The translations under genes and the position numbers were made by a program. The notes beneath the pieces were generated by a model. The model worked only from the letters and a program-made list of their open reading frames with translations. It made no database searches and had not been told where the DNA came from. Below, in pieces: positions 1-26,504 of a stretch of DNA of 30,006 bases. The stretch's first letter is position 1. Each line of letters opens with the position of its first letter. The stretch is from a virus. The stretch lies in the IMG/VR virus record IMGVR_UViG_3300034168_000528, positions 1-30,006 of that record; one strand, 5' to 3'.

Positions 1-395
1 ACTCGAGCTTCGAGCAGACGATCGAGAAGCACGAGCGCCTGGTCGTGCTCGCCCGTGAGAAGTACGAGCGGATGTTGCGTGCCGGTGATGCCGAGGCTGG
101 GCGCTACCAAGTCACGTACAACCAGAGCCTGAAGCAATCGGTCGCCCTTCGGGAAGAGGCCGAGCGTCGGTCGGTGTTTGCTCGCGAGCATATCCGAGCA
201 AGCGAAGCCCGTGAGGCGATGCTCCGTCTGGCTGGCCTGATCGTCGAACGGCTGGACGCGCTGGGCTCGGAGTGCGGTGAGAACGCAAACCCCAAGGACC
301 CGGTGAAGGCCATCGGTGTGCTGACGGAATGGGCGCGTGAGACGCGGGAGAAAGTCGCCCGTGTTTCGGGTTCGCTGGAGGAGCCGAAGCCGTGA
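1..395 (+). CDS. Probable terminase small subunit, 3' part (continues from 29934 if circular)
   Basis: The frame is open from the first base, so the gene is cut by the window edge. A GTG at 45 is a possible but unlikely start. The visible 130 residues are highly charged and helical, with a coiled-coil-like stretch at both ends and no membrane segment. It overlaps the large terminase by 4 bases (GTGA), the usual place of a small subunit, which recognises packaging sites on phage DNA and recruits the motor. Joining the window ends adds 25 residues from an ATG at 29934 and gives 155 residues in total, a normal size for this role. The assignment rests on position, size and helical character; no family motif was recognised. 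Confidence 0.6.
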   Translation, partial: SSFEQTIEKHERLVVLAREKYERMLRAGDAEAGRYQVTYNQSLKQSVALREEAERRSVFAREHIRASEAREAMLRLAGLIVERLDALGSECGENANPKDPVKAIGVLTEWARETREKVARVSGSLEEPKP

Positions 396-2218
396 ACGCC
401 GACGAGCTCTTCGAGGAGGGCTTGGCCGTGGTCAGGCCGTCAGCCTTGAGCGACCCTGTCGCTTACCTGAAGGAGAACGTGAAGAAGATTCCGGCGGGCG
501 TGTTCGACGGCGGGTACAACCCGAAGCGTTGGCCGTGGATCGGTGAGGCTGTCCGCATCTTCAATGCGCCGACGACGTCGCGCCTGTTCATGCCCTGGGC
601 AATCGGCTGCGGGAAGACGCTGACCTTGAAACTGAACGCGACTTACCTGATGGCAAACCGCCGTGCGTCGATGGCCATCTTCCTCGACTCGCAGGACAAG
701 GCGAAGGCGTTCACGCTTAACGAGCTCAGGCCGCTGTTCGACCAGGTGTCGGATATCCGAGGCCAGATGTCCGGTGAGGACAACGACAAGTCGGGCACGC
801 TTCGGTTCGCGGACGGCTCGCTGATTCACAACCGATCGGCCTCTACGGAGAAGCACCTGCAGTCCCTGCACGTCCGCTACGTCTTGGGCTCTGAGTGCTG
901 GCAGTGGCCGAACGGTGCGCTGGCCATGAGCATGAGCCGACTGAAGGCTGCGGCGTTCGCGAGCAAGGCGATCTACGAGAGCCAGCCAGGGAACGTCGAG
1001 GGACAGGGTGCGGAGTTCTGGAAGTATTACCTGATGACCGACCAGCGGGAGTGGATGTTCGTGTGTCCGTCGTGCAACCATCGACAGCCCTGGCTGTGGG
1101 ACTACGTTCGCTTCCCAGAAGGCGCGAAGATGATAGACGGCTGGGACCTTGAGGCCGTGCAACAGGGCACGACCTACGAGTGCTCGAAGTGCCGTCACCG
1201 CATGGAGGACAACGACGAGGTGCGGACGGTCTGCAACGAGGTCGAGCGCGGCGCCGGGTTCGAGGCCACGTCAAAGGCAGAGAAGGCAGGTTACGTCGGA
1301 CTGCACGTCAACGCTCTCGCGTCTACGAGCTGGGGCTCGCTCGCGGTGGACATGATCAAAGCGAAGGAGTCGGCAGAGATGGGCGACAATATTCCTAGGC
1401 AGGTATTCAAGCAGCAGTTCTTGGCTCTCCCTTGGAGTGATGACACCGGGAGCCTCGTCGTCTCGACCGAGTCCTCGGACTATGCGATGGCCGACCCTTG
1501 GGACGCGGTGGCCGCCATCGGTCCGCGCGGTCAGATCGTGGACATGGCCGGAGCACCTGAAGGCTCGGTCAAGTTCCAGACGCTTTCCGTGGACTGTCAG
1601 GGCGACCACTTCTGGACGGTGGTCAGGCAGTGGGCACGAACGGGCCACAGCCGTCTGGTGCACTTCGGCAAGGTGCAGAGCACGGACGGGCTGACGGATT
1701 GGTCGGGCCTCGACGCTCTGGCGGCCAAGCACGGCGTCCACCCTCAGCTCGTCATGGTAGACTCTGGCGACGGCAACTCCACGCAGGAGGTCTACAAGCA
1801 GTGCGCCGTCCGTGGCTGGTACTGTGCCAAGGGTTCAGGCCAGGAGTACTTCAACGTCAAGACGAAGTCGGGCGAGACCGTCCGGCGGTTCTACGCGACG
1901 CCGACCGCGATCCATGTACCGGGCGTCCGTACGCCTACGGCTCTGGTGGTCTGGTCGAATCTCTCAGGCAAGGATTTATTCCACGGCCAGAAAGCGAGGA
2001 AGGTCTTCACGTTTGCCCGTGATGCCGACCCTGCCTACGTGGAACAACTTAACAGCGAGACCCGCGTAAGGGAGCCGGGCGGCAAGGCAATCTGGCGGTT
2101 GCGCCAGGGCGTGAAGCACAACCACGGCTTGGACTGCGAGCTTCTCGGGATGCTCATCGCGGCTCGCTGGGGTCTCATCGGACGAGACGAGGTGCAAACC
2201 TTACCCGCCCCGCAATAA
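392..2218 (+). CDS. terL: Terminase large subunit, lambda GpA family
   Basis: This is the ATPase-nuclease motor that cuts concatemeric DNA and packages it into the prohead. The 608 residues contain a P-loop-like segment AIGCGKT near residues 70-76. Two CxxC pairs follow (CPSC near 225, CSKC near 266), forming the zinc-binding insert typical of the GpA family. The C-terminal nuclease signatures VDCQGD (about 400), MVDSGDG (about 455) and HGLDCELLG (about 578) supply acidic metal-binding positions. The length fits the family (about 600-650). It starts with GTG inside the stop of the small subunit, and its own last codons carry the start-proximal element used by the next gene. The GpA family call is confident. 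Confidence 0.93.
   Translation: MNADELFEEGLAVVRPSALSDPVAYLKENVKKIPAGVFDGGYNPKRWPWIGEAVRIFNAPTTSRLFMPWAIGCGKTLTLKLNATYLMANRRASMAIFLDSQDKAKAFTLNELRPLFDQVSDIRGQMSGEDNDKSGTLRFADGSLIHNRSASTEKHLQSLHVRYVLGSECWQWPNGALAMSMSRLKAAAFASKAIYESQPGNVEGQGAEFWKYYLMTDQREWMFVCPSCNHRQPWLWDYVRFPEGAKMIDGWDLEAVQQGTTYECSKCRHRMEDNDEVRTVCNEVERGAGFEATSKAEKAGYVGLHVNALASTSWGSLAVDMIKAKESAEMGDNIPRQVFKQQFLALPWSDDTGSLVVSTESSDYAMADPWDAVAAIGPRGQIVDMAGAPEGSVKFQTLSVDCQGDHFWTVVRQWARTGHSRLVHFGKVQSTDGLTDWSGLDALAAKHGVHPQLVMVDSGDGNSTQEVYKQCAVRGWYCAKGSGQEYFNVKTKSGETVRRFYATPTAIHVPGVRTPTALVVWSNLSGKDLFHGQKARKVFTFARDADPAYVEQLNSETRVREPGGKAIWRLRQGVKHNHGLDCELLGMLIAARWGLIGRDEVQTLPAPQ
2198..2215 (+). promoter_or_regulatory. Start-proximal element, copy 1 (before gpW-like gene)
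   Basis: ACCTTACCCGCCCCGCAA lies at the very end of the large terminase gene and is followed by TAAGTAT and the ATG at 2223. It matches the 18-base pattern ACCTT(A/G)CC-N5-CGCA(A/C) found before several other genes. Whether it acts as a promoter or a translation signal is not known. Confidence 0.5.
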
Positions 2219-3943: not shown

Positions 3944-4743
3944 AGTGCTTAATCAACGGACTGTCCGGGCGCGAGCCCCTGCTATGCGACCCTATCAAGG
4001 CCGCGAACCACATGAAGTACGCCGAGAAGTACGGCGTCGTGGACAGCGTGCTGGATATGTTCTTCAACCCTGTCGCCAAGCCCTACGTCACGCAGGGCGG
4101 CACGGCGGTCATCCCGCTCCAGGGCTTTCTGGGTGTCGGCCTGACCAAGTTCGAGAAACTCACGGGGGCCATGGACATGACCGAGGTAAGCGACCAGATT
4201 GACGAAGCACTCGCCAATCCTGCCGTCCAGCGCATCGCCTTCGAGATTGATTCCCCTGGTGGGACTGTCGTCGGCACGCCCGAACTCGCCGACAAGATTG
4301 CCAGCATCCCGCTGCCGACCATGTCCTACGCCAAGAAGCTGATGGCCTCCGGGGCGTACTACACCGGCTCTCAGGCCGACTACGTTCTGGCCAGCCCCTC
4401 CGCTATGGTGGGCTCGATTGGCGTGATCAGCGTGGACGAGTCCTACGACGAGGCGTTCAAGAACATGGGCCTGAAGGTCGAGGTGTTCCGTGCGGGCAAA
4501 TACAAGGCCCCGAACATCGCCGGCGAAGGCTACACGGAAGAGATGCGCGACCTCGAGCAGAAGGCCGTCGAGGCCATGCACGAAGAGTTCAAGCAGACCG
4601 TCCTCCGCAAGCGCTCGCTCGCCAACCGCGCCGATATGGAAGGCCAGATTTTCACGGGCCGAGAAGCCGCCGCCAAGAACCTCATCACCGGCTTGGCTAC
4701 GTCCTTTGCCGAAGCCCTGGCCGCGTTCGAGCAGTCCGCTTAA
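3940..4743 (+). CDS. S49 (SppA/ClpP-fold) prohead protease, gpC-like
   Basis: This serine protease probably matures the capsid during head assembly. The 267 residues include the oxyanion-region motif EIDSPGGTV near residue 103, the nucleophile region MASGAYYTG near 137, and GSIGVIS near 158. The GKYKAPN segment near 186 carries the lysine expected as general base in S49 peptidases. It lacks the long C-terminal extension that in lambda C contains the nested scaffold Nu3. A separate coiled-coil gene follows instead. The start overlaps the portal stop (ATGA), and no Shine-Dalgarno sequence is visible (CCCTCTAATCC precedes the ATG). The family call is confident. Confidence 0.9.
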   Translation: MKCLINGLSGREPLLCDPIKAANHMKYAEKYGVVDSVLDMFFNPVAKPYVTQGGTAVIPLQGFLGVGLTKFEKLTGAMDMTEVSDQIDEALANPAVQRIAFEIDSPGGTVVGTPELADKIASIPLPTMSYAKKLMASGAYYTGSQADYVLASPSAMVGSIGVISVDESYDEAFKNMGLKVEVFRAGKYKAPNIAGEGYTEEMRDLEQKAVEAMHEEFKQTVLRKRSLANRADMEGQIFTGREAAAKNLITGLATSFAEALAAFEQSA

Positions 4744-4760
4744 CCTTACCCCCTACGCAA
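4743..4760 (+). promoter_or_regulatory. Start-proximal element, copy 2 (before scaffold-like gene)
   Basis: ACCTTACCCCCTACGCAA is followed by TAGTAT and the ATG at 4767. It begins in the stop codon of the protease gene. Spacing and sequence match copies 1 and 3 closely. Confidence 0.5.
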
Positions 4761-4766
4761 TAGTAT

Positions 4767-5195: not shown

Positions 5196-6050
5196 ATGCC
5201 TAACACCATCAACAGCGCTCTGATCGTCGATACCGTCGCCGAGCTCAGCCTCACCTCCCTCTCGAACCGCCTCGCGGCCCTCGGTAACTTCGCCTCCGAC
5301 TTCTCGGCTGACGTGAAGCGCCCGAAGGACGTCGTCCAGGTGGCTCTCTCCACCGCTGGCAGCACCACGCTGACCAACCCGACCGCGTTCAACGTCATCG
5401 GCGACAGCACCCTCGGTGCCACCGCCGTCTCGCTGAACCACCTCTACCAGCCCTTCGGCCTCTCCTACGCCGACATCCAGAACGGCATCAAGCTCGAGAA
5501 GATTCTGAAGATCAACATGGACAAGCTGGCCGACTCCATCTGGGCCGCCGCTACCGCTCCGATCACCGTCGCCAACTTCGGCGCCGCCACGGTCACCGCC
5601 GCTGACTCGGCTGTTACCCCTGGCTCTGCTCAGCTGAAGGCTCTCTGGGCTGGCGTCTCGAAGGCCGGTCGCAAGACCCTCATCGTGAACCCGGGCATCT
5701 ACTCCCAGCTCATCCCGACCAGCACGACCTCCCTCCCGCTCTCCGCTGGTGCTTACGGTTTCGATGGTGGCGTGTTCTACGCTTCCCTCTTCCCGTCCGA
5801 AGCGAAACTGGCTGGTTTCGCGGTTTCCAGCGAAGCCCTGGCGATGGCCGCCGCCGCCCCGGACCTCGACGCTGTCGGCAACGACTTCCTCGTCCGCGAA
5901 GTGGTTCCGATCGAAGGTCTCGGCATCTCGGTCTACTACAACGTCTGGGCTGACAAGAGCACCCGTAACCTCGTCGGTTCCATGGAACTGATGTTCGGCG
6001 CGAACAAGGCGATCACGACTGGTACGCTCGCCTCGGTCTACAACCCCTAA
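5196..6050 (+). CDS. Major capsid protein
   Basis: This is the probable coat protein that builds the icosahedral shell. The 284 residues are rich in Ala, Ser, Thr and Val, with few charges and an almost uniform set of preferred codons (GCC, ACC, CTC), typical of the most highly expressed phage gene. Position after the protease and scaffold and before a strong terminator supports the role. Segments such as KTLIVNPGIYSQL and the late FLVREVVPIEGLGISVYYN strand region look like the P- and A-domain elements of HK97-fold coats. The leader CAACCTACTAGCTACCC has no Shine-Dalgarno sequence. The fold is inferred from context, since no diagnostic motif exists. Confidence 0.8.
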   Translation: MPNTINSALIVDTVAELSLTSLSNRLAALGNFASDFSADVKRPKDVVQVALSTAGSTTLTNPTAFNVIGDSTLGATAVSLNHLYQPFGLSYADIQNGIKLEKILKINMDKLADSIWAAATAPITVANFGAATVTAADSAVTPGSAQLKALWAGVSKAGRKTLIVNPGIYSQLIPTSTTSLPLSAGAYGFDGGVFYASLFPSEAKLAGFAVSSEALAMAAAAPDLDAVGNDFLVREVVPIEGLGISVYYNVWADKSTRNLVGSMELMFGANKAITTGTLASVYNP

Positions 6051-6070: not shown

Positions 6071-6095
6071 AGCCCCCAGCGATGGGGGCTTTTTT
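6071..6095 (+). terminator. Rho-independent terminator after major capsid gene
   Basis: A perfect 7-bp stem (AGCCCCC and GGGGGCT, loop AGCGAT) is followed directly by a run of T. It lies 20 bases after the capsid stop codon and probably separates high-level head transcription from the tail genes. Confidence 0.9.
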
Positions 6096-7461: not shown

Positions 7462-7899
7462 ATGGGAACCAAATCCGCCCGCCATATCGTGGAAGCCGCC
7501 GTGGCCTCCCACCTCACCGCCCAGGTCGAACTGACCGGGGTCAACATCTACAAGGGCGACAGCGCCGACACGAACGAGCTCCCCAAGGCCATCGTGCTCT
7601 GCGACTCCGCCCGCCTACCTAACGACTTCCCGGACGGCCTCGGCAACTACTCATGCACCGTCCGCGTCACCCTTCTGGACTCTGCCGACGACGTGACCCT
7701 CACGGATCACCGTGCCCGGATGGCTGCCATCGCCGGGGCCATGCAGGACCTCGAAGCGCTGCAGGCGGTGTTCACATTGCAGGCCGACGCCCACTGCTAC
7801 GACATCACCCCTCTGTCCGAGGATGAGGGGGTCAACGAGCGCTCCTGGGCATCGGTCCTAGTCTACGACATTCTGGTGGTCGTGAACCCCGAGGGCTAA
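7462..7899 (+). CDS. Probable tail terminator protein (gpU-like)
   Basis: The 145-residue protein caps the growing tail tube and joins it to the neck, judged by position and layout. Residues 1-35 form a helix and strand. A strand NYSCTVRVTLLDSADDV near residues 65-78 is followed by a helix with DHRARMAAIAGAMQDL, and the protein ends in an edge strand VLVYDILVVV. This alpha/beta pattern matches gpU-like terminators. The ATG at 7462 was chosen because the longer frame from 7393 lies inside the preceding gene and adds an implausible Arg-rich head. The last bases carry element copy 3, used by the tube gene. Confidence 0.6.
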   Translation: MGTKSARHIVEAAVASHLTAQVELTGVNIYKGDSADTNELPKAIVLCDSARLPNDFPDGLGNYSCTVRVTLLDSADDVTLTDHRARMAAIAGAMQDLEALQAVFTLQADAHCYDITPLSEDEGVNERSWASVLVYDILVVVNPEG

Positions 7900-7916
7900 C
7901 CTTACCTTATCCGCAA
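7899..7916 (+). promoter_or_regulatory. Start-proximal element, copy 3 (before tail tube gene)
   Basis: ACCTTACCTTATCCGCAA starts on the last base of the tail terminator stop codon and is followed by TAGTAT and the ATG at 7923. From the CGCAA core to the ATG it is identical to copy 2. Confidence 0.5.
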
Positions 7917-7922
7917 TAGTAT

Positions 7923-11659: not shown

Positions 11660-11674
11660 CCCTGCCCGGGGTAA

Positions 11675-11692
11675 ACCCTACCATTTGCACAA
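11675..11692 (+). promoter_or_regulatory. Start-proximal element, diverged copy 4
   Basis: ACCCTACCATTTGCACAA is followed by TAAGTAGCC and the ATG at 11702. It keeps the 18-base length and shares GCA, AATAAGTA and the CTACC half with the other copies, but it is the least conserved. Confidence 0.35.
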
Positions 11693-11701
11693 TAAGTAGC
11701 C

Positions 11702-12016
11702 ATGTCTGACACCGTCACGCTATCGCAGGGCAACACGTTCGCCTGCACCTTCGTCTGGACCCCTGGCGCTACCGGCCCTGCCAACCTGCTGACCACGACC
11801 CTGACCTCGACTGTGGAGGACAAGTGCGGCAACCTCTACGAGCTGACGATTACCAAGGCGCTGGACGGCCTGTCGTTTACGGTGGCCTACCCGGGCTCAA
11901 CCGCTGACTGGGCCTTGGGCCTAGGCCGATGGGATATCAAGTTCGTCTTCCCTGGCGGCGGCATCTCCCGCACCGAGGTGTTCCGCGTGCAGGTTATCGA
12001 CTCCGTCACCGTCTAA
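11702..12016 (+). CDS. Ig-like beta-sandwich protein upstream of tail fibre
   Basis: The 104 residues form one apparent beta-sandwich domain. Strands include NTFACTFVW, LYELTITKAL, FTVAYPG and WDIKFVFPGGGISRTEVFRVQVIDSVTV. The pattern (a polar strand, two long central strands, then W-D-I-K-F and a T-E-x-F-x-V edge strand) resembles small Ig-like proteins often encoded next to phage tail fibres. The function is probably structural, perhaps fibre attachment. It carries a weak version of the start-proximal element and ends 3 bases before the fibre ATG. The assignment is by fold impression and neighbourhood. Confidence 0.5.
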   Translation: MSDTVTLSQGNTFACTFVWTPGATGPANLLTTTLTSTVEDKCGNLYELTITKALDGLSFTVAYPGSTADWALGLGRWDIKFVFPGGGISRTEVFRVQVIDSVTV

Positions 12017-12019
12017 GCC

Positions 12020-14014
12020 ATGCCTGACGCGACGATCACCTCGACGGCTTCGACCTTTGGGACCATCTCGGGGGTATTTTCCGCTGACCAGTCCACCATC
12101 TCGGGGACCGTCACGGGCATCGTGGCGGGCACGCTGGACGGTTCGGTCGGCGTCCCCGGGCCTGCGGGCGCGGCCGGGCAGGGCGTACCTGCTGGCGGCA
12201 GCTCAGGTCAGTACCTCCAGAAAGTATCTGGGGTCGATTACGCAACGGACTGGGTGACGCTTAACCTCTCGGGCTTGGCCACCGAGTCTTGGGTCACCGC
12301 TGGTTTCTACCCCCTCTCGGGTAACCCATCGGGCTTCCTGACGGCAGCCAGCCTATCAGGATACGCTACGGAGTCGTGGGTGACCTCGCAGGGCTACATC
12401 ACCAGCGCGGCGCTTACTGGGTACGCCCCGATTGCCAGCCCAGTCTTCACGGGCAACCCCACCGCCCCGACCCCGACCTTCGGCGATAACGATACCTCCA
12501 TCGCCACCACGGCCTTCGTCCAGGCTGGCCTTCTTGGCGGCACGGCCAACGCCCGCAACCTCGAGGTCTACGTCCGCAACCAGTCGGGTGCTTCTATCCC
12601 TGCGGGCTCCATCGTCTACATCAGCGGAGCCACGGGCAACCGTCCCCTGATCACGCTGTCCCAGGCTAACAACGACGCGAACTCCGCCCAGACGATGGGC
12701 TTTACGAAGACCGCCATCGCGAACAACGGCTTAGGCTACGTCATCGTCCGCGGCGAAGTCGAGAACCTCGACACGTCAGCTCTGACCGAAGGCGCTCAGC
12801 TGTACCTGTCCCCCACGGTGGCCGGTGCCTACACGACGACCAAACCGACCGCCCCCCAGCACCTCGTCTACGTCGGCATCTGCGTCCGCGCTCACCCGAC
12901 TCAGGGCGTCATTCTCGTCGCTGTCCAGAACGGTTATGAGCTGGGAGAAATCCACGACGTGGCCCTCGGCACGCTGGCGAATAACGACCTGCTGGCCTAC
13001 GAGTCCTCGACCGACCTCTGGAAGAACAAGACGTTCTCGGCCCTCGGCCTGCTGACCTCCAGCGCGGCGGCCTCGACCTACGCCCCGATCGCTTCGCCGA
13101 CGTTCACGGGCACGGTGACCATCCCGGCGGGTGCGTCCATCTCTGGCTTCGCCCCCCTCGCCAGTCCGACCTTCACGGGCACGCCTTCCCTTCCGACTGG
13201 CACGACTGGCGTCACTCAGACCGCTGGCAACAACACCACGGCGCTGGCCACTACGGCGTTCGTGACGGCGGCGGTTCCGGCGTTCGCGACCTTTACGGAT
13301 GTCATTGGCACGCCGTCTTCGACGACTATTTCCCTAAACCCATCTCTCGCACCGTGGTTGATGGCAAACGCCAACGTGCGTTACTTTGGAATGCTTGGAT
13401 TCAGTTCCGTATCCGGAGGCAGTGCTACTAATTATGGGACAACCCGTGAAGTCGCCGCCACCGCCGCAAGCCGGCGTGCGACATATATGGATGCATTATA
13501 TGGTTTTGCGACTTATGGCCTAAGGTCATCTACCGACGCGGCAAATATCAACTTTTCAAAGAAGCATTGGCTTTTCGGTATCTATTTTCCGTCATCGGGT
13601 AACTCTGGAACAAATTTCTACGGCGACGCAAACACGGTTACCCGTATCAACCTTGGAGGGAGGTCTGCAAACGCAACAGGTGGACTGACTCAAAAGGGAA
13701 TCGGGCTTTTTAAGGCTGGAGGAACCGGGTCACTCATCTATCTTACCGTGCACAACGGCACTACGCTGACTAACGTCTCCTCTGGCGTCACCAACGCCAC
13801 AGGTCAGTCATTTAAATATGTCATCTATTCCGACGGCACTGGCAACGTCACCCTCTATTTAGACGGCGTCAGTGTTGCAACGACGAATGCTGGACCCACT
13901 GGCATGACTGCCTCTGGCCGCTCAGTCTATGAAGAGCAGGTGGAAAGCAGCGCGACCTTCTCCGTTGGCCAATGCATGACAGTGACAGGGGCCGGACTTA
14001 TCATCGAACGCTAA
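12020..14014 (+). CDS. Tail fibre / receptor-binding protein
   Basis: The 664-residue host-recognition fibre is modular. After a beta N-terminus there is a short collagen-like patch (GVPGPAGAAGQGVPAGG, near residue 48) and a SSGQYLQKVSG motif. Next come repeats of the type ATESWV...GY and APIASPxFTGxPxxPT...IATTAFV (about 90-175 and 350-430), common in trimeric phage fibres. A domain with LHDV-like EIHDVALGTLANNDLLAY lies near 312-330. The C-terminal part from about residue 435 is a beta-rich, lectin-like domain with lower GC. Ending without a recognisable chaperone domain, it is likely trimeric. The 67-residue gene that follows could be a partner. Confidence 0.85.
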   Translation: MPDATITSTASTFGTISGVFSADQSTISGTVTGIVAGTLDGSVGVPGPAGAAGQGVPAGGSSGQYLQKVSGVDYATDWVTLNLSGLATESWVTAGFYPLSGNPSGFLTAASLSGYATESWVTSQGYITSAALTGYAPIASPVFTGNPTAPTPTFGDNDTSIATTAFVQAGLLGGTANARNLEVYVRNQSGASIPAGSIVYISGATGNRPLITLSQANNDANSAQTMGFTKTAIANNGLGYVIVRGEVENLDTSALTEGAQLYLSPTVAGAYTTTKPTAPQHLVYVGICVRAHPTQGVILVAVQNGYELGEIHDVALGTLANNDLLAYESSTDLWKNKTFSALGLLTSSAAASTYAPIASPTFTGTVTIPAGASISGFAPLASPTFTGTPSLPTGTTGVTQTAGNNTTALATTAFVTAAVPAFATFTDVIGTPSSTTISLNPSLAPWLMANANVRYFGMLGFSSVSGGSATNYGTTREVAATAASRRATYMDALYGFATYGLRSSTDAANINFSKKHWLFGIYFPSSGNSGTNFYGDANTVTRINLGGRSANATGGLTQKGIGLFKAGGTGSLIYLTVHNGTTLTNVSSGVTNATGQSFKYVIYSDGTGNVTLYLDGVSVATTNAGPTGMTASGRSVYEEQVESSATFSVGQCMTVTGAGLIIER

Positions 14015-15807: not shown

Positions 15808-15849
15808 GACGGCGGGGGGTGGGGCGGACATACCTTGCCTATCCCGCAC
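15806..15849 (+). promoter_or_regulatory. Candidate promoter of the ligase-recombination operon
   Basis: TTGACG (15806-15811) is followed after 19 bases by TACCTT (15831-15836). The segment continues as the shared 18-base element ACCTTGCCTATCCCGCAC (15832-15849), 3 bases before the ATG at 15853. If TACCTT is the -10 box, transcription would start within CCCGCAC, giving a leader of only about 5-10 bases. Confidence 0.45.
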
Positions 15850-16979: not shown

Positions 16980-16992
16980 CTTCCCCCCGCAC

Positions 16993-17781
16993 ATGAATAA
17001 TAAAGAATACCACGCCAGCCCGGCGGTCTCGAACTCGAAGCTCTCCCGCTTCCTCGAGTCCCCGCGTCTGATGAACACGCCCCGCAAGAAGACCCCTTCC
17101 CTCCGTTGGGGTTCGCTTGTCCACACCATCATCCTCGAGCCTCAGCTCATCGGCGACGAATGGGCCGTGATGCCCGAGGGCCTCGACAAGGGCAAAGGAG
17201 CCAAGGCCCGCGAGGAAGAGTTCCTCCTGGCTAACGAGGGCAAGGAGATCGTGAGCCATGATGAGTTCACGCAACTCTCGGCCATCGCCGAAGCCGTCCA
17301 GCAGGATGACGAAGCCGCCGCCCTGCTCTCCGGCGAAGGGGTCAACGAGTCTTCCTACTTCTGGAAGGACTCCGTCACCGGCATCGATATGCGCTGCCGA
17401 CCTGACCGCTACCGCGACGACGGCCTGCTCGTGGACGTGAAAACCACCGCCAGCGTCGAGCATTATGCCTTCCGCCGCTCGGTCTGGGACTATGGCTATG
17501 ACCGCCAGAGTGCGCTGTATACTGACGGCATCGAAGCCGTGACCAGCCGCCGCCCCCGTGGATTTGCCTTCATCGCCATCGAGGGCAAGGACGCCCCAGA
17601 AATCTTCGTCCAGGTGTTCGTGATGACCGAGGCCGACATCGAGATTGGCCGCAAGCGTTACCGCGCTGGCCTCGACCTGATGGATCGCTACATCAAGACC
17701 CACGGCGCTGACCCGATCGCATGGCCCAAGAAGACCGGCGCTGGCGTCATCGAGGTGGACCTCTCCAAGTTCAACGTCTGA
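16993..17781 (+). CDS. RecE-like exonuclease (PD-(D/E)XK, exodeoxyribonuclease VIII family)
   Basis: This 5'-3' exonuclease generates single strands for the annealase encoded next. The 262 residues open with the family's signature YHASPAVSNSKLSRFLESP (residues 6-24). The catalytic core follows: CRPDRY near 136 and VDVKTT near 147-152, with acidic residues and Lys matching the PD-(D/E)XK metal site. The later segment YDRQSALYTDGI near 170-185 matches the conserved Q-x-x-x-Y motif. At 262 residues it is the short phage form rather than E. coli RecE. The ATG is preceded directly by CCCGCAC. The 11-base gap to recT supports a RecET-type pair. Confidence 0.88.
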   Translation: MNNKEYHASPAVSNSKLSRFLESPRLMNTPRKKTPSLRWGSLVHTIILEPQLIGDEWAVMPEGLDKGKGAKAREEEFLLANEGKEIVSHDEFTQLSAIAEAVQQDDEAAALLSGEGVNESSYFWKDSVTGIDMRCRPDRYRDDGLLVDVKTTASVEHYAFRRSVWDYGYDRQSALYTDGIEAVTSRRPRGFAFIAIEGKDAPEIFVQVFVMTEADIEIGRKRYRAGLDLMDRYIKTHGADPIAWPKKTGAGVIEVDLSKFNV

Positions 17782-18929: not shown

Positions 18930-19546
18930 AACACGTACTCATCCCAGTCAGTGGCTTCGCAAGAAGTGGTAAGGATACTTTAGCAGACTCCATCTACGAG
19001 CTGCTGGAACAAGACGAGCCGGAGTATTCCTGCATCGTCCTGAAGTTCGCCGACGCGCTGAAGGAGTCCCTCCAGATTTCCCTCGACGAGGCGGGCGTGA
19101 ACATCGACGCCTTCACCGAGGACACCGCCAAGAAGGCCGCGCTCCGTCCGCTCCTGGTCGCCTACGGGGAATACTGCCGAACCCAGAACCAGAACGTCTG
19201 GGTGGACAAGGTCATCGAGCACATCAACAACTGGGCCGATATCACCTGCAAGGACGCAGGCGCCGAACACTCCGTCATCCTCGTGCCGGATATGCGCTAC
19301 GAGAACGAGTACCTCAAACTCGAGGCCCTCTGCGTCAAACGCGGCTGGGCCTTCGTCCCGATCTACATCGAACGCCAGGGCAACTTGCCCGCCAACAACG
19401 CCGAGGCCGAGTCCATCGGACTGATGGCGGCGCACGACTGCTTCCGTAAGGGCAACGCCCTGCAGGTCTGCTTCCCCGACAACTCCGTTGACGCGATCCG
19501 TCAGTGGGCCCGTAAGTTCACCCAGTCAATGAGCCTATACCGATGA
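18926..19546 (+). CDS. Deoxynucleoside monophosphate kinase-like P-loop protein
   Basis: The 206 residues have a P-loop GFARSGKDT at residues 10-18 in an N-terminal alpha/beta fold. A FADALKE segment near residue 41 and an LVPDMRYENE segment near residue 123 resemble the conserved (D/P)xRYxxE element of phage dNMP kinases (T4 gp1 type). Such enzymes phosphorylate dNMPs recovered from host DNA to supply dNTPs. The C-terminal half is a mixed alpha/beta lid and helix bundle. The start overlaps the mini-zincin stop and the stop overlaps the phosphoesterase start. Sugar or nucleobase specificity cannot be read. Confidence 0.72.
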   Translation: MKHVLIPVSGFARSGKDTLADSIYELLEQDEPEYSCIVLKFADALKESLQISLDEAGVNIDAFTEDTAKKAALRPLLVAYGEYCRTQNQNVWVDKVIEHINNWADITCKDAGAEHSVILVPDMRYENEYLKLEALCVKRGWAFVPIYIERQGNLPANNAEAESIGLMAAHDCFRKGNALQVCFPDNSVDAIRQWARKFTQSMSLYR

Positions 19547-20301
19547 ACATCACCCGGAAGTGGAAGCGGTTCGCAGTCGTCAGTTGCTCGCATGGGCATC
19601 TCATCGACCCGGCGGCAGGCAAGGCCGTCACGGATTTCATCAAGGCTTTCCAGCCTCACCGCTTCGACCACGCCGGGGACTACACCGACCTCTCGCCCAT
19701 GATGGGCAACGGCAAGGGCGACGGCGACCCGCTCGGCCCGGACGTCGAGGAGGGGCTCGCCTTTCTCGAGCAGCTGAAAGCGTACAAGGACCTCGAGCTC
19801 GTCATCCACGACGGCAACCATGAGGTCCGTTTGCGCCGTCTCTCGCACTCATCCAACCAGGTCATAGCCGAGTGCGCCCGCCTGCTGCTCGTCCAGATTC
19901 AACAGCACTGCCTCAAACTGAAGGCCAAGCAAATCCCGTATAACGGCATCTGGGAAGGCTCGCGCATTGGCAACGGCCTGATCACCCACGGCTCCATCTA
20001 TAACGAGAACGCCTGCCGAGACATGGCCGAGATGTACTGCAAGGGCGGGGTGTCCGTGGTCATCTTCGGGCATACCCATTCCCCGGGCATCGCCAAGGGT
20101 CGCCGCGACGACTCTCCCCTGGGCATCAACGTCGGCACGCTGACCCGCATGGGTTGCATGGACTACGCGAACACCCGGAGAAAGACGTTCTCGTGGGGTC
20201 AGGCCATCTGCTACGGGGAGTACTCCGACGACCTGATCGTGCCCACCCTTTACGTCCACCCGCAGGAACTGGCAGGCCAGCCGTGGCGTATCAACGTATG
20301 A
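19543..20301 (+). CDS. Metallophosphoesterase (calcineurin-like)
   Basis: The 252 residues show the blocks of the calcineurin-like superfamily: CSHGH at 15-19 in place of the usual D-x-H, GDYTD near 45, GNHE at 91-94, a THG block near 149 (LITHGSIYN) and GHTH near 176. These bind two metal ions and hydrolyse phosphoesters such as nucleotides, DNA ends or RNA. In most members the first block is D-x-H-G, while here the Asp position is Cys 15, so one metal ligand looks altered. The gene overlaps both neighbours and lies next to a kinase, suggesting nucleotide metabolism. Confidence 0.8.
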   Translation: MNITRKWKRFAVVSCSHGHLIDPAAGKAVTDFIKAFQPHRFDHAGDYTDLSPMMGNGKGDGDPLGPDVEEGLAFLEQLKAYKDLELVIHDGNHEVRLRRLSHSSNQVIAECARLLLVQIQQHCLKLKAKQIPYNGIWEGSRIGNGLITHGSIYNENACRDMAEMYCKGGVSVVIFGHTHSPGIAKGRRDDSPLGINVGTLTRMGCMDYANTRRKTFSWGQAICYGEYSDDLIVPTLYVHPQELAGQPWRINV

Positions 20302-20792
20302 GCACCTCAAGCAAACTCCTCTCGGTCCTGATGGCCGAACTCAACCGCGAGCCCAAGGACTACCCCTGCCCCAAGGGGTGGACCACCGTCGAGCAGATCA
20401 GGGAAGAGCTGAGCATGGCCCACACGCGCAACGCATCCTCCCGCGCGCTCGACCTGCAGCGCCGTGGCCTGCTCGAACGCCAGCCCCATCAGTTCAAGTC
20501 CGGCACAGGCCAGTGCCACATGGCCTACGTCTACCGCCCCGTCCCTCCGTATAAGTCCATCAAGGAGGCCGCCGACCAGATGTTCGTCCACCGCGCCGAC
20601 AAAGTCCCCAAGGGATGGGTGCGCCTGGTCGATTACGCGGTCAACAAGAACGTCTCGGACGTGGCTGTCCGTGGCCGAGTCGCTCGGGCCGGCCTGAAGC
20701 CGAAGTACTGGAAGACCCCTCGCGGTATCATCGGCCTGCACCTGAATGCGTACTACTGGAAGCCAGACCTCGACCGCCTGTATAAAGCATAA
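20298..20792 (+). CDS. Winged-helix-like protein, possible regulator
   Basis: The 164 residues have an N-terminal domain with WTTVEQIREELSMAHTRNASSRALDLQRRGLLER (about 28-60). This pattern, helix, then DNA-recognition helix, then a wing with arginines, is that of winged-helix DNA-binding proteins. The second half (KVPKGWVRLVDYAVNKNVSDVAVRGRVARAGLKP) is another helix-turn-helix-like segment followed by basic residues. The ATG at 20298 overlaps the phosphoesterase stop. It is the last gene before the convergent hairpins. A DNA-binding role, perhaps in the early-late switch, is inferred only from the helical pattern and basic charge. Confidence 0.45.
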   Translation: MSTSSKLLSVLMAELNREPKDYPCPKGWTTVEQIREELSMAHTRNASSRALDLQRRGLLERQPHQFKSGTGQCHMAYVYRPVPPYKSIKEAADQMFVHRADKVPKGWVRLVDYAVNKNVSDVAVRGRVARAGLKPKYWKTPRGIIGLHLNAYYWKPDLDRLYKA

Positions 20793-20868: not shown

Positions 20869-21342
20869 CTAACGTGCGACGGCAGGGCGTTTTGGCAAGC
20901 CCCAAGCCAGCGTGTTCACCTGCCGCGCCTTGTCGAACTTGACGCGGGGGACGTACGCCCAGCTGAAACCGTAGCGCTCGTAGCCTGACCAGCCCAGATT
21001 CCAAGCCAGCCAGATTTCCCCGGGGTAAGGCTGTCGCCCGATCTGCCCGGCGAGTCTGACCTTCAGGACCGTCAGCCAGGTGCGAGCGTAGTCGCGCGCT
21101 CTGATTGGGGCCTTGGCGTCAGAGTAAGGGTAGACGGCCAGCCCCGCCTTGCGCCGGATAGCCGAGCAGTCGGACCACGCTGAGGAGTGCCACTGTAGGC
21201 ATCCGATAGCCTTCCCTGCGTCCCCGTCGGGGGTCTTAGCCCCACGGCCAGAGGACTCGACCTGCTCGACGGCCTGCAGGGTCTGCTCTGGGATGGCCTC
21301 AGAGGACAGCAGGGCGGCGGAGAGGGCTAGGACTAGGGTCAT
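20869..21342 (-). CDS. Endolysin: exported lysozyme-like transglycosylase
   Basis: The 157 residues begin with a short hydrophobic N-terminus (LVLALSAALLSS) that could be a signal peptide or a signal-anchor-release segment. A catalytic block follows at residues 23-45: AVEQVESSGRG with the probable catalytic Glu 29, then GDAGKAIGCLQW. This E-S-S...G-x-x-Q pattern is typical of SLT/GH23-type transglycosylases, which cut peptidoglycan glycan chains. A WNLGWSGYERYG segment near 115-126 matches the substrate-binding end. It lies on the opposite strand from the holin and is the last gene of the leftward operon. The call is good; export mode is inferred. Confidence 0.75.
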   Translation of the reverse strand: MTLVLALSAALLSSEAIPEQTLQAVEQVESSGRGAKTPDGDAGKAIGCLQWHSSAWSDCSAIRRKAGLAVYPYSDAKAPIRARDYARTWLTVLKVRLAGQIGRQPYPGEIWLAWNLGWSGYERYGFSWAYVPRVKFDKARQVNTLAWGLPKRPAVAR

Positions 21343-21671
21343 GGGGTCGGGCGGCCTTGGCGGGCCACGCAGGGGGTAAGGCCGAGACGCCTGTAGGTAG
21401 CGTAGAGGGTATGACGGGAAACCCCGCTGGTCTCTGACAGTTGCGGGACGGTAAGCCCCTGGTCATGGGCGGCTAGGACCAAGTCCTTGACCGAGCCCTT
21501 CACGCGGCGCTCACGGAGGGAGGGCAGGCCGAGGTGCTTGATGGCGCAGCGGACCGAGCGGAGGTTGTGCCCGGTGATATTGGCGACCATCTGAGCGGTG
21601 AGGTGAGGGTGAGCCGTGGCGATCACGGCGGCCTTGACCACGCCGTAGTTAGTCCGTGATCTCGAGGTCAT
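21339..21671 (-). CDS. Tandem helix-turn-helix protein
   Basis: The 110 residues contain two helix-turn-helix motifs: LTAQMVANITGHNLRSVRCAIKHLGL (about 24-49) and LTVPQLSETSGVSRHTLYATYRRLGL (about 73-98). The basic linker LRERRVKGSVKDL joins them. Two such motifs in one small protein suggest DNA binding at paired or repeated sites, perhaps a regulator of the phage's own promoters. The start overlaps the preceding gene by 23 bases, and its stop overlaps the endolysin start (ATGA). It is not similar to a recognised repressor family, so lysogeny control is not claimed. Confidence 0.55.
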   Translation of the reverse strand: MTSRSRTNYGVVKAAVIATAHPHLTAQMVANITGHNLRSVRCAIKHLGLPSLRERRVKGSVKDLVLAAHDQGLTVPQLSETSGVSRHTLYATYRRLGLTPCVARQGRPTP

Positions 21672-23634: not shown

Positions 23635-23931
23635 TTACTGTGCGGCCTCCCATGCGACGACCTTGGCCTCGGCGTCGGTCTTCCAGTTGCCACGGAACTC
23701 CACGACCAGGTCGTAGGCCGTGAACAGCGAGGCGATGCGCTTCTTGCCGATCAGCGGGGCGAAGTCGCCCGAGGTGGGGGCGTGGTCTACGCGGTCGAGT
23801 TCGACCTTCCTGCCGAACAGGATGCCGTAGAGCTCGTAGGTCGCCTTCGGTCCGGCCTTCGCCCGGTGTTCGAGGATGAGTTCTTTGCAGGCTTCCAGAC
23901 GGCCTGCGTCGTCGATGTTCTTGGGTTTCAT
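23635..23931 (-). CDS. Small mixed alpha-beta protein
   Basis: The 98 residues start with a charged helix (DDAGRLEACKELILEHRA) followed by a strand region (ATYELYGILFGRKVELDRV). After a loop come two more short segments and the C-terminal FTAYDLVVEFRGNWKTD. A fold is plausible but unknown. The start is preceded by the repeat TAATCTCCCGCAC, and the stop lies 4 bases before the next start. A DNA- or nucleotide-related role is only a guess from the operon. Confidence 0.45.
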   Translation of the reverse strand: MKPKNIDDAGRLEACKELILEHRAKAGPKATYELYGILFGRKVELDRVDHAPTSGDFAPLIGKKRIASLFTAYDLVVEFRGNWKTDAEAKVVAWEAAQ

Positions 23932-23945
23932 GTGCGGGAGATTAG
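23926..23945. repeat. 20-base stop-start junction repeat, copy A
   Basis: The + strand sequence TTTCATGTGCGGGAGATTAG is identical to that at 24351-24370. On the coding strand it is the TAA stop of one gene, the box CTCCCGCAC and the ATG-AAA start of the next. Confidence 0.7.
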
Positions 23946-24248: not shown

Positions 24249-24356
24249 TTAGCGGGCGAGGTCGTTGATGGCGTGGGCGAGTTCCGGGCCACAGAAGGTG
24301 ACCACGGCCAGCCAGCCGAAGATGATGATGAACGTGAGGGCGATTAGGGATTTCAT
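24249..24356 (-). CDS. 35-residue single-helix membrane protein
   Basis: This tiny protein is a single membrane segment (LIALTFIIIFGWLAVVTFCG, residues about 4-23) with a short helical C-terminus (PELAHAINDLAR). Its ATG follows the 20-base junction repeat, and its stop lies 4 bases before the next start. Tiny early membrane proteins often block host or competing-phage processes at the membrane. That role is a guess here, while the coding call is supported by the matching leader and spacing. Confidence 0.5.
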   Translation of the reverse strand: MKSLIALTFIIIFGWLAVVTFCGPELAHAINDLAR

Positions 24357-24370
24357 GTGCGGGAGATTAG
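24351..24370. repeat. 20-base stop-start junction repeat, copy B
   Basis: TTTCATGTGCGGGAGATTAG, identical to copy A at 23926-23945. It spans the junction between the genes ending at 24367 and beginning at 24356. Confidence 0.7.
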
Positions 24371-24645
24371 AGGGAAGCCTGAGAGCGAGCGTATGCGGCT
24401 TCGCGGTCCTTGGCGTGGTCGGTGGCGATACGGACGGCAACCCACGCGGCGTCCACGGCATCGCGCAAGGTCTGGGTGGCGCGCCAGATCGCGGCGGCTT
24501 CTTCGCGGGCCGGGGTGGCTTCGATGGTGTCGAAGCACAGCTTGAAGCAAATGTCGTCGAGGCGCTTGGCTTCGGCGGCAAGAGATCGGGTCACGGCGAC
24601 GGCGTCGGCGTAGGTGGTTTCGTTGGCGTTATGAGGGTGCGTCAT
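24367..24645 (-). CDS. First gene of the leftward operon, helical protein
   Basis: The 92 residues form a continuous helical pattern rich in Ala, Asp, Arg and Glu (for example ADAVAVTRSLAAEAKRLDDICFKLCFDTIEATPAREEAAAIWRATQ). It contains two Cys in ICFKLCF and ends in EAAYARSQASL. It has no known family. As the first gene of the leftward operon, next to the divergent promoter region, it is probably expressed early. The ATG follows the box CTCCCGCACAAC. Confidence 0.5.
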   Translation of the reverse strand: MTHPHNANETTYADAVAVTRSLAAEAKRLDDICFKLCFDTIEATPAREEAAAIWRATQTLRDAVDAAWVAVRIATDHAKDREAAYARSQASL

Positions 24646-24754
24646 GTTGTGCGGGAGGACAGCACGCTAGACCCGCCCCATCCGCTGTAAACCACAAAGC
24701 GTTATAAATCTTTACCCCGATTGGAATGACCCCATCCTGCCCCTATTCCCGCAC
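24646..24754. promoter_or_regulatory. Divergent control region of leftward and rightward replication operons
   Basis: These 109 bases lie between two divergent operons and contain the less GC-rich stretch around 24690-24725 (AAACCACAAAGCGTTATAAATC). On each side the CCCGCAC box directly precedes or almost abuts the start codon (24649-24655 on the - strand, 24748-24754 on the + strand). On the - strand, TTTACA, 16 bases, TAGCGT could be a promoter. No gene is seen. Confidence 0.45.
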
Positions 24755-26128
24755 GTGTTCCCTCTCCGTCCATACCAGCAGGCCGCCGTTGACCAAGTCC
24801 GCGAAGCCTTCAGAGCAGGCCGCCGCAAGCCCCTGCTGGTCGCCCCTACCGGCTCCGGCAAGACCGTCATGTTCTCCTACGTGACGGCCTCAGCTGCGGC
24901 CAAGGGCAACCGCACGCTCATCCTCGTCCACCGCGCCGAACTCCTGGAGCAGTGCCACCGCTCGCTTGCGTCCATGGACGTGCCGCATGGCCTCATCGCC
25001 GCAGGGCTCACGCCTGACCGCAACCAACTGACGCAGGTCGCCAGCGTGCAGACGCTCGTCCGCAGGTTCGACCGCGTCGTGCCGCCTGACCTGATCGTTA
25101 TCGACGAGGCTCATCACGCCACCGCAGGCGCATGGGCATCGGTCCTGGCTCAGTGGCCACAGGCCCGCGTGCTCGGCGTCACCGCGACACCGGCACGGCT
25201 CGACGGCAAGGGCCTCGGCCAAGTGTTCGACGACCTGATCCGTGGGCCCGAGGTTACAAAACTCATAGACGATGGGTACTTATGTAAACCAGTGTATTAC
25301 GCCCCCAAGACCGTAAGCATGGACGGCGTGCATAAGGTAGCCGGAGACTTCAACCGCGCCGAGGTCGCAGAACGCATGGACAAGCCGACCATCACCGGCG
25401 ACGCTGTCACCCATTACCGCAAGTACGCAGAAGGCCAGCCATGCATAGTATTCTGCACAGGAATAAAGCACGCCGAGAACGTGGCCGCCGCGTTCAACGC
25501 ATCAGGCTACCGCTTCAAGGTCATCGACGGCACGCTCGCCAAGGAGGAGCGCGCGGCCCGCGTCGCCGCCCTGGGCTCGGGTCAGCTGCACGGCCTCGTC
25601 TCGGTCGATATCGTGTCAGAGGGTTTCGACCTGCCCTGCGTGGCCGTGGCCATCCTGCTACGCCCTACCGCGTCCCTGTCCCTGCACCTCCAGCAGATCG
25701 GCAGAGTGCTACGCCCCGCACCGAACAAGCCCCGCGCCATCATCCTAGACCACGTGGGCAACTGCAGGCGGCATGGGCTAGCCGAAGAGGTCCGCGACTG
25801 GTCGCTTGACGGCGTACGCAAACGCGTACGCAAGGGCCAGCAGGACGACGTGGCCGACACCCGTCAATGCCCCGAGTGCTTCGCCGTCCATACCCCGAGC
25901 CCTACCTGTCCGCAGTGCTTGCACGTCTACGAAATCAAGGACCGCATCCCTGACGTAGTCGATGGCGAGCTCGAAGAGCTGAAGGCCCGTGAGGCCGTCA
26001 AGCAGCGCAAGCGGGAGCAAGGCACGGCGCAATCCCTGGAGGACCTCATCAAGGTCGGCAAGGCTCGCGGCATGAAGAACCCCTACGGCTGGGCGCACAA
26101 CGTGTTCAAGGCACGGCAGAAGAAATGA
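24755..26128 (+). CDS. SF2 helicase (DEAH-type, zinc-ribbon)
   Basis: The 457-residue protein is an ATP-driven DNA translocase or helicase. Motifs in order are Walker A APTGSGKT (30-37), DEAH (117-120), TATP (143-146), and a C-terminal helicase domain with the SEGFDLP segment (about 288) and QIGRVLRP motif VI (about 313). A treble-clef-like CPEC...CPQC pair lies near 372-387, followed by a charged coil. This layout is common in phage replication modules, where such helicases act with a VRR-NUC nuclease and primase. It starts with GTG directly after CCCGCAC. The frame overlaps the next gene (ATGA). Confidence 0.88.
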   Translation: MFPLRPYQQAAVDQVREAFRAGRRKPLLVAPTGSGKTVMFSYVTASAAAKGNRTLILVHRAELLEQCHRSLASMDVPHGLIAAGLTPDRNQLTQVASVQTLVRRFDRVVPPDLIVIDEAHHATAGAWASVLAQWPQARVLGVTATPARLDGKGLGQVFDDLIRGPEVTKLIDDGYLCKPVYYAPKTVSMDGVHKVAGDFNRAEVAERMDKPTITGDAVTHYRKYAEGQPCIVFCTGIKHAENVAAAFNASGYRFKVIDGTLAKEERAARVAALGSGQLHGLVSVDIVSEGFDLPCVAVAILLRPTASLSLHLQQIGRVLRPAPNKPRAIILDHVGNCRRHGLAEEVRDWSLDGVRKRVRKGQQDDVADTRQCPECFAVHTPSPTCPQCLHVYEIKDRIPDVVDGELEELKAREAVKQRKREQGTAQSLEDLIKVGKARGMKNPYGWAHNVFKARQKK

Positions 26129-26469: not shown

Positions 26470-26504
26470 CCCCTCAGGGCGGGACACCTTGGGCCATCCC
26501 GCAC
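26462..26504 (+). promoter_or_regulatory. Candidate promoter before primase-helicase gene
   Basis: TTGCCT (26462-26467) lies 17 bases from CACCTT (26485-26490). The segment ACCTTGGGCCATCCCGCAC (26486-26504) is a one-base-longer copy of the shared element, 3 bases before the ATG at 26508. Confidence 0.45.

Follow-up and report, generated by a model that had tools for sequence, protein, structure and literature searches.

A short element placed just before the start codons of late genes was found in a large, mostly uncultured group of lake phages. This late element is real and phage-specific. It is diversified by lineage and has a strong candidate partner protein, encoded by a gene (20298-20792) that swaps together with the element's core box between lineages. 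The element is probably a late-promoter-type signal, read as double-stranded DNA by the product of this gene acting with the host RNA polymerase. The sequence in which it was characterized, hereafter the window, is a 30,006-base IMG/VR phage record with 62% GC.

The late element in the window

The late element has the form AACC(T/C)TACC-N7-CAATA, followed by TA and ATG, and is present in the window at 2197, 4742, 7898 and 11674, with no other sites. The first copy (AACCTTACCCGCCCCGCAATA, 2197..2217, +) matches the pattern exactly, is also found in relatives, and is held by the final codons of the terminase large subunit gene (terL, 392..2218, +); the next start codon lies at 2223 and the predicted +1 is the A at 2221. 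Within terL the box spells the leucine codon TTA, which makes up 11 of the 758 leucine codons in the window. The second copy (AACCTTACCCCCTACGCAATA, 4742..4762, +) stands 5' of a putative scaffold gene (ATG 4767, predicted +1 A 4765) and the third (AACCTTACCTTATCCGCAATA, 7898..7918, +) 5' of a putative tail tube gene (ATG 7923, predicted +1 A 7921). The fourth, a variant (AACCCTACCATTTGCACAATA, 11674..11694, +), precedes a gene for 104 amino acids (ATG 11702, predicted +1 A 11698). All are on the + strand, 4-7 nt before ATG. When the pattern was written as AACCTTAC-N8-CAATA (variant AACCCTAC), matches were again confined to these four positions, each directly 5' of an ORF.

The initial annotation had described an 18-base element before start codons in both gene modules. 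Its six sequences were all found as written and the late element stood; however, two distinct elements had been merged. The late copies, at 2198, 4743, 7899 and, diverged, 11675 in the numbering of the 18-mer, extend beyond it and read AACCTTACC-N7-CAATA-(n)-GTAT-ATG. In the exact copies ATG lies 3-7 nt downstream of the 18-mer, in agreement with the 3-9 bases claimed, and N is variable between invariant flanks, as expected of one recognised signal with constant half-site spacing. The names given to the genes (gpW-like, scaffold, tail tube, Ig-like) have position and length as their basis and were not confirmed: for the genes at 2223, 4767, 7923 and 11702, PHROGs returned nothing and Pfam no significant match.

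Near-exact copies greatly exceeded chance expectation. ACCTTRCC-N5-CGCAM had four exact matches on the + strand and none on the - strand, compared with a mean of 0.015 and a maximum of 1 in 200 dinucleotide shuffles, and the strict late form ACCTTACC-N5-CGCAATA had three copies, compared with 0.0 in 200 shuffles. Tolerating three mismatches brought the pattern to chance level (35 found, 28 expected), so that only near-exact copies are meaningful. Motif discovery before all starts, suggested along with the 18-mer, recovered the late element: in an unbiased search for gapped pairs upstream of all called starts in the window, TACC-N8-AATA ranked first, and four of its five copies in the record, counting both strands, precede starts.

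A separate element at early genes

The copies at 15832 and 26486, before the DNA ligase and primase genes, belong to an early-gene element. They had been taken as the same element as the late one, an assignment dropped after comparison of relatives; late and early sites are thus different elements, and the claim of a single signal in both gene modules fell. The early class conserves CCCGCAC alone, 0-4 nt 5' of the start codon. The copy originally singled out, at 15832-15849, is the weaker, separate early-class leader of DNA ligase (+; ATG 15853; conserved CCCGCAC 15843-15849), and that of primase, the largest ORF of the window, lies at 26486..26504 (+; ATG 26508; CCCGCAC 26498-26504). In relatives the ACCTT half drifts to ACCTTTGCC, TATCTTGGC, GTCTGTCC or CACCGTTGCC while CCCGCAC is kept beside the start codon. 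Among them the leader takes the forms ACCTTGCCTATCCCGCAC, ACCTTTGCCTATCCCGCAC, ATCTTGGCTTATCCCGCAC or GTCTGTCCGTATCCCGCAC before ligase and ACCTTGGGCCATCCCGCAC or ACCGTTGCCAATCCCGCAC before primase, with CCCGCAC constant in both.

Seven of the 14 copies of CCCGCAC in the window lie within 6 nt of a start (0.08 expected), at seven early genes on both strands; this count takes in the ligase site, with its ATG 3 nt downstream. The remaining sites are directly 5' of the exonuclease start at 16993 (16986..16992, +) and of the GTG start of helicase at 24755 (24748..24754, +), and before the minus-strand genes 24367-24645 (24649..24655, -), 24249-24356 (24357..24363, -) and 23635-23931 (23932..23938, -). 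Among the genomes checked, CCCGCAC occurred at starts in clades A and B and not at starts in clades C and D, a distribution independent of factor type. The primase leaders of G001, G010 and G014 read TTGCCAATCCCGCA, which is the late box of clade D with a 3-nt spacer, unlike the late boxes of these same genomes, which are of type A or B.

Lineage-specific boxes in related phages

Relatives were gathered by a pattern scan of IMG/VR, which gave 96 stretches, and by a terL search, which gave 79 loci, mostly of 77-100% identity. Genes were called with a home-made caller, and orthology across clades was assigned by position and length. Among 40 distinct terL ends, 33 carried the A box, six the B box and one (L141) a CAACCCTACC variant. 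With the strict pattern, 15 clade-A records, window included, had sites at the same late genes and none on the other strand. The number per record was 3 or 4, varying with completeness and drift, and a related 16.6-kb record (G021) had 3.

Clade B (G010, G014 and G016), with 88% identity to clade A in the major capsid protein and 80% in terL, carries AACCCGAACT-N6-CAATA, of equal overall length, at the same genes. The box of clade D (G018 and many loci) is TTGCCAAT-N4-GCA(A/G)G, that of clades E/F (G019, G020) T(T/A)CCAA-N5-GCAA, also given as TTCCAAT-N4-GCAA, and that of clade C (G024, G025, G026) TTGACTCCCGCGTTG, in four or five copies. Each clade's box is internally uniform, differs from those of other clades and stands before corresponding late genes. 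These sites are found after terL, at the scaffold gene, after the capsid gene (clades C-F), at the tail tube gene and at the gene of about 104 amino acids, so the idea that the element would precede orthologous genes in related phages was borne out. With unbiased gapped-pair discovery it emerged from several clade A, B, C, D and E genomes; the element pairs were not prominent in G014 and G020.

Boxes A and D share TTrCC and GCA, 11-12 nt apart. Boxes A and B share AACC and CAATA and differ in the core, which is TTACC in A and CGAAC in B. In clade D (G018, L250:10538) the putative scaffold gene begins within the protease ORF, and TTGCCAAT-N4-GCA lies just 5' of the internal ATG.

Predicted start site and terminators

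Downstream of the box an A is invariant. It lies 6 nt after GCA in all 64 distinct copies of clade D, preceded by a pyrimidine in 52 of them, and in 33 of 33 copies of clades E/F; in clade C it lies 5 nt after the box in 10 of 10 copies; and in clade A one inserted base moves the equivalent A by one. The distance from box to ATG, by comparison, ranges from about 3 to 22 nt overall (5-13 nt after GCA in D, 4-22 nt after the box in C). A fixed pyrimidine-A step at variable distance from the start codon fits a transcription start followed by a very short leader. The pattern suggests that the conserved A is the transcription start and that the messages are near-leaderless, and it lends support to the almost leaderless transcripts proposed earlier.

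Terminators are placed accordingly in several clades. An intrinsic-terminator-like hairpin with a T-run follows the putative major capsid gene of the window (6071..6090, +), and a strong hairpin is also found after the capsid gene in relatives of clades A, B, D and E/F. The capsid-gene terminator of a clade-D relative (11916-11937) ends 14 nt before the element at 11951, and in clade C one terminator (2719-2733) abuts the element at 2737 and another (7548-7571) precedes that at 7620. With strong terminators before elements in D and C, transcription must restart there. As a class, terminator-like sites showed no enrichment over shuffles, and only the few strong ones matter.

These data also bear on whether the box acts in RNA. 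It might be a start-associated signal at the level of translation, recruiting or regulating ribosomes in a Shine-Dalgarno-poor host, possibly through RNA binding by the winged-HTH protein described below. In every case the box is in sense orientation and a short way 5' of ATG; the late genes that carry it lack a Shine-Dalgarno site, no AGGAG/GGAGG core being present in their leaders; and Shine-Dalgarno scarcity is reported for A. muciniphila and Verrucomicrobia bacterium IMCC26134 (PMC10783764). We nevertheless regard this reading as unlikely. The box is present at only 4-6 genes per genome, of about 40-50 called, its distance to ATG varies widely, over about 3 to 22 nt, while the downstream A is fixed, and boxes abut or follow terminators. 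A candidate host metagenome-assembled genome (MAG) has no copies beyond the phage contig. A general translation signal in place of Shine-Dalgarno, as the initial annotation had offered, is at odds with these observations. An RNA hairpin was also rejected: the half sites are non-complementary in A, B and C, and the TTGC/GCAA pairing of D is broken by the common GCAG. The fixed pyrimidine-A step and the terminators and T-runs beside elements make a DNA-level, transcriptional reading preferable to a translational one.

Known promoter classes and the host

Sigma-54-like, sigma-70 and Bacteroidota readings of the box were rejected, as its spacing and invariant positions do not fit. Between positions 1 and 16200, only two sigma-70-like pairs with 16-18 nt spacing were found where 2.8 were expected, and these two, at 13976 (+) and 4789 (-), do not drive any element's gene. 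No -10-like hexamer occurs at -12 to -7 of the predicted start, so ACCTT could not be upheld as a -10 box. The proposed resemblance to the Bacteroidota -7 box also failed: TAnnTTTG was absent from logos built on 88 copies of clade A, 33 of the variant and 17 of clade B, and relatives point to Verrucomicrobiota. A T7-type promoter was discarded because it needs a continuous block from -17 to about -5, and the middle 4-7 nt of the box are variable in A, B, D and E/F. No sigma-70 region 2 (PF04542) was detected in 10 genomes in a search whose controls gave matches; T7-type RNA polymerase (PF00940) was without match in the same number of genomes, in a search whose positive control was silent too.

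The host is probably Opitutia/Verrucomicrobiota. One terL relative lies on a contig of an Opitutia MAG and one on a contig of an Aurantimicrobium MAG. All three copies of the element in the Opitutia MAG (1.4 Mb, incomplete) are on the phage contig and none elsewhere.

The box could alternatively be read by a host sigma factor of unusual specificity, in which case the phage protein would be unrelated and its divergence in clade B a coincidence. Phages often use the host RNA polymerase, and neither a polymerase nor a sigma factor of the phage was recognised here. This explanation is very improbable in our view, since the A and B boxes differ between phages whose capsid proteins are 88% identical and whose hosts are presumably similar, and since the strict box is absent from the incomplete 1.4-Mb candidate host MAG beyond the phage contig.

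A candidate partner protein

Gene 20298-20792 (+), the last gene of the rightward early operon, encodes a candidate specificity factor of 164 amino acids with a predicted tandem winged-HTH. In a per-gene identity table inspected by eye, it was the only gene with at least 62% identity in all covering clade-A genomes (62-87%) that was at 27% or unmatched in both clade-B genomes (27% in G010, unmatched in G014), where most neighbouring genes were at 60-98%. The metallophosphoesterase gene (19543-20301) is mosaic, with 53% identity in some close relatives and 98-100% in others, including the clade-B genome G010.

The putative major capsid gene (5196..6050, +), which aligned with P8625 gp11 (annotated as containing P22 coat protein), was used as a phylogenetic yardstick. 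Between the window and clade B, identities of capsid, terL and factor were 88, 80 and 24%; for clade D they were 20, 46 and 69%, and for clade C 19, 31 and 27%, the linkage of factor and box being based on two clade-B and three clade-C genomes. A and D have factors 69% identical and share TTrCC...GCA, whereas A and B have factors 24% identical and differ in the core; the core therefore follows the factor, and the rest follows the lineage. The downstream CAATA, common to A and B despite their different factors, is of the latter kind. Another HTH gene (21339-21671, -) was rejected as partner because its identity pattern does not track the box: it was unmatched in G005, which has box A, and at 48-54% in both A and B genomes.

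A DNA-binding fold is predicted for the factor. AF2 modelled the A-type protein as two winged helices (pLDDT 88.9) and the B homologue with an identical order of elements (pLDDT 79.9). Single domains resembled wHTH domains of MarR/TFE type (Z up to 6.3) and of Xis/BldC/RacA type (Z up to 6.1), all below Z 8 and hence similar at the level of fold only. PHROG and Pfam assigned the window factor to no significant family, a PDB structure search returned no match at E below 0.001, and BFVD contained one full-length match, an uncharacterised protein of an uncultured phage (TM 0.78, 26% identity). A tblastn search (E 0.01) found the factor in none of the isolate phages of the collection.

Proposed mechanism

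We favour the promoter reading, in which the factor would be made from the early operon early in infection and would contact a TTrCC-like and a GCA half site 11-12 bp apart. This spacing of about one helical turn fits a protein that has a pair of DNA-binding domains. Host RNA polymerase would then be brought to a start at the conserved A of the pyrimidine-A step, 6 nt after GCA, or 7 nt in copies with one inserted base, placing the box at about -20 to -6 and leaving 0 to about 20 nt of leader, in most cases 0-8. Four late units would thereby gain additional transcription, the putative scaffold/capsid and tail tube genes among them; in this reading the factor would activate rather than repress.

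A protein at -20 to -6 overlaps the region of normal sigma/-10 contact, and ordinary activation geometry does not fit. On account of this unusual position a repressing or a sigma-like role has to be weighed. In the latter, the factor would be a promoter-specificity factor that takes over the start-locating job of sigma, recognising the half-site pair at -20 to -6 and positioning host polymerase at a leaderless start codon, and its specificity would have changed several times together with the boxes; this stronger version is possible but doubtful. The boxes could also be operators from which the factor represses late transcription, stoperator-like, until late infection. Protein on DNA at -20 to -6 would obstruct RNA polymerase, and the box resembles cluster A stoperators in being asymmetric, in a single orientation and in short gaps at gene starts (PMC3203893). 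We hold repression to be quite unlikely: the boxes have no overlapping consensus sigma-70 promoter, the sites are confined to late genes with none near early starts, and no integrase match was obtained among the window proteins scanned, nor was a lytic/lysogenic switch seen.

If the promoter reading is correct, late expression in these phages is switched on without any recognised sigma or polymerase gene, and their messages are near-leaderless in hosts reported to be Shine-Dalgarno-poor. They would also allow the pairing of recognition helices with half sites to be tested as a code, in a natural set of matched boxes and factors with at least four box types and factor types from 24% to over 60% identical. 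The phages concerned are abundant and mostly uncultured, with Opitutia/Verrucomicrobiota as likely hosts.

Comparison with known systems

In T4, host RNA polymerase is redirected by a phage factor both at middle promoters, which combine a MotA box centred near -30 with a sigma-70 -10, and at late promoters, where gp55 reads TATAAATA. The proposed likeness lies in a phage-encoded factor redirecting host polymerase at a class of promoters, whereas neither the sequence nor the geometry of the MotA and gp55 promoters is present in the late element. A literature search found no description of the boxes reported here.

The isolated Verrucomicrobia phage P8625 (L162) has a similar late gene order and repeated sites shortly before the ATG of late genes. 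Sequences like TTGACA/TTGCCA-17-TATTGG were seen upstream of 5448, 9656, 10772, 15594 and 17541, about 7 nt 5' of the ATG, and several of these late sites also carry a GTATCC-N7-GGATAC dyad. The late promoters predicted here for P8625 are thus probably near-leaderless, an independent hint of such late messages in a Verrucomicrobiota-type host group. The sigma-70-like -35, the spacing and the GTATCC/GGATAC dyad set P8625 apart, and tblastn detected no homologue of the tandem winged-HTH protein in it. The P8625 genome paper does not mention promoters (PMC4642752).

Like the stoperators of cluster A (L5), which are bound by a phage protein, the boxes are short, asymmetric, one-orientation sites in intergenic gaps. 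Stoperators are bound by the immunity repressor, whereas the boxes are promoter-positioned and restricted to four to six late genes, and no integrase or repressor family was recognised among the window proteins scanned. The closest described case is that of the SAS and ESAS of cluster K mycobacteriophages, which are likewise short asymmetric repeats, all oriented the same way and a few nt 5' of start codons. The SAS has an AGGAG core and lies 3-7 bp before the start codons of non-structural genes, in one orientation, and the ESAS has a subcluster-specific consensus that its authors read as reflecting differing specificities of DNA-binding proteins (PMC3203893). In contrast to the cluster K SAS, the late element is devoid of a Shine-Dalgarno core, belongs to the structural module and has a named candidate protein partner.
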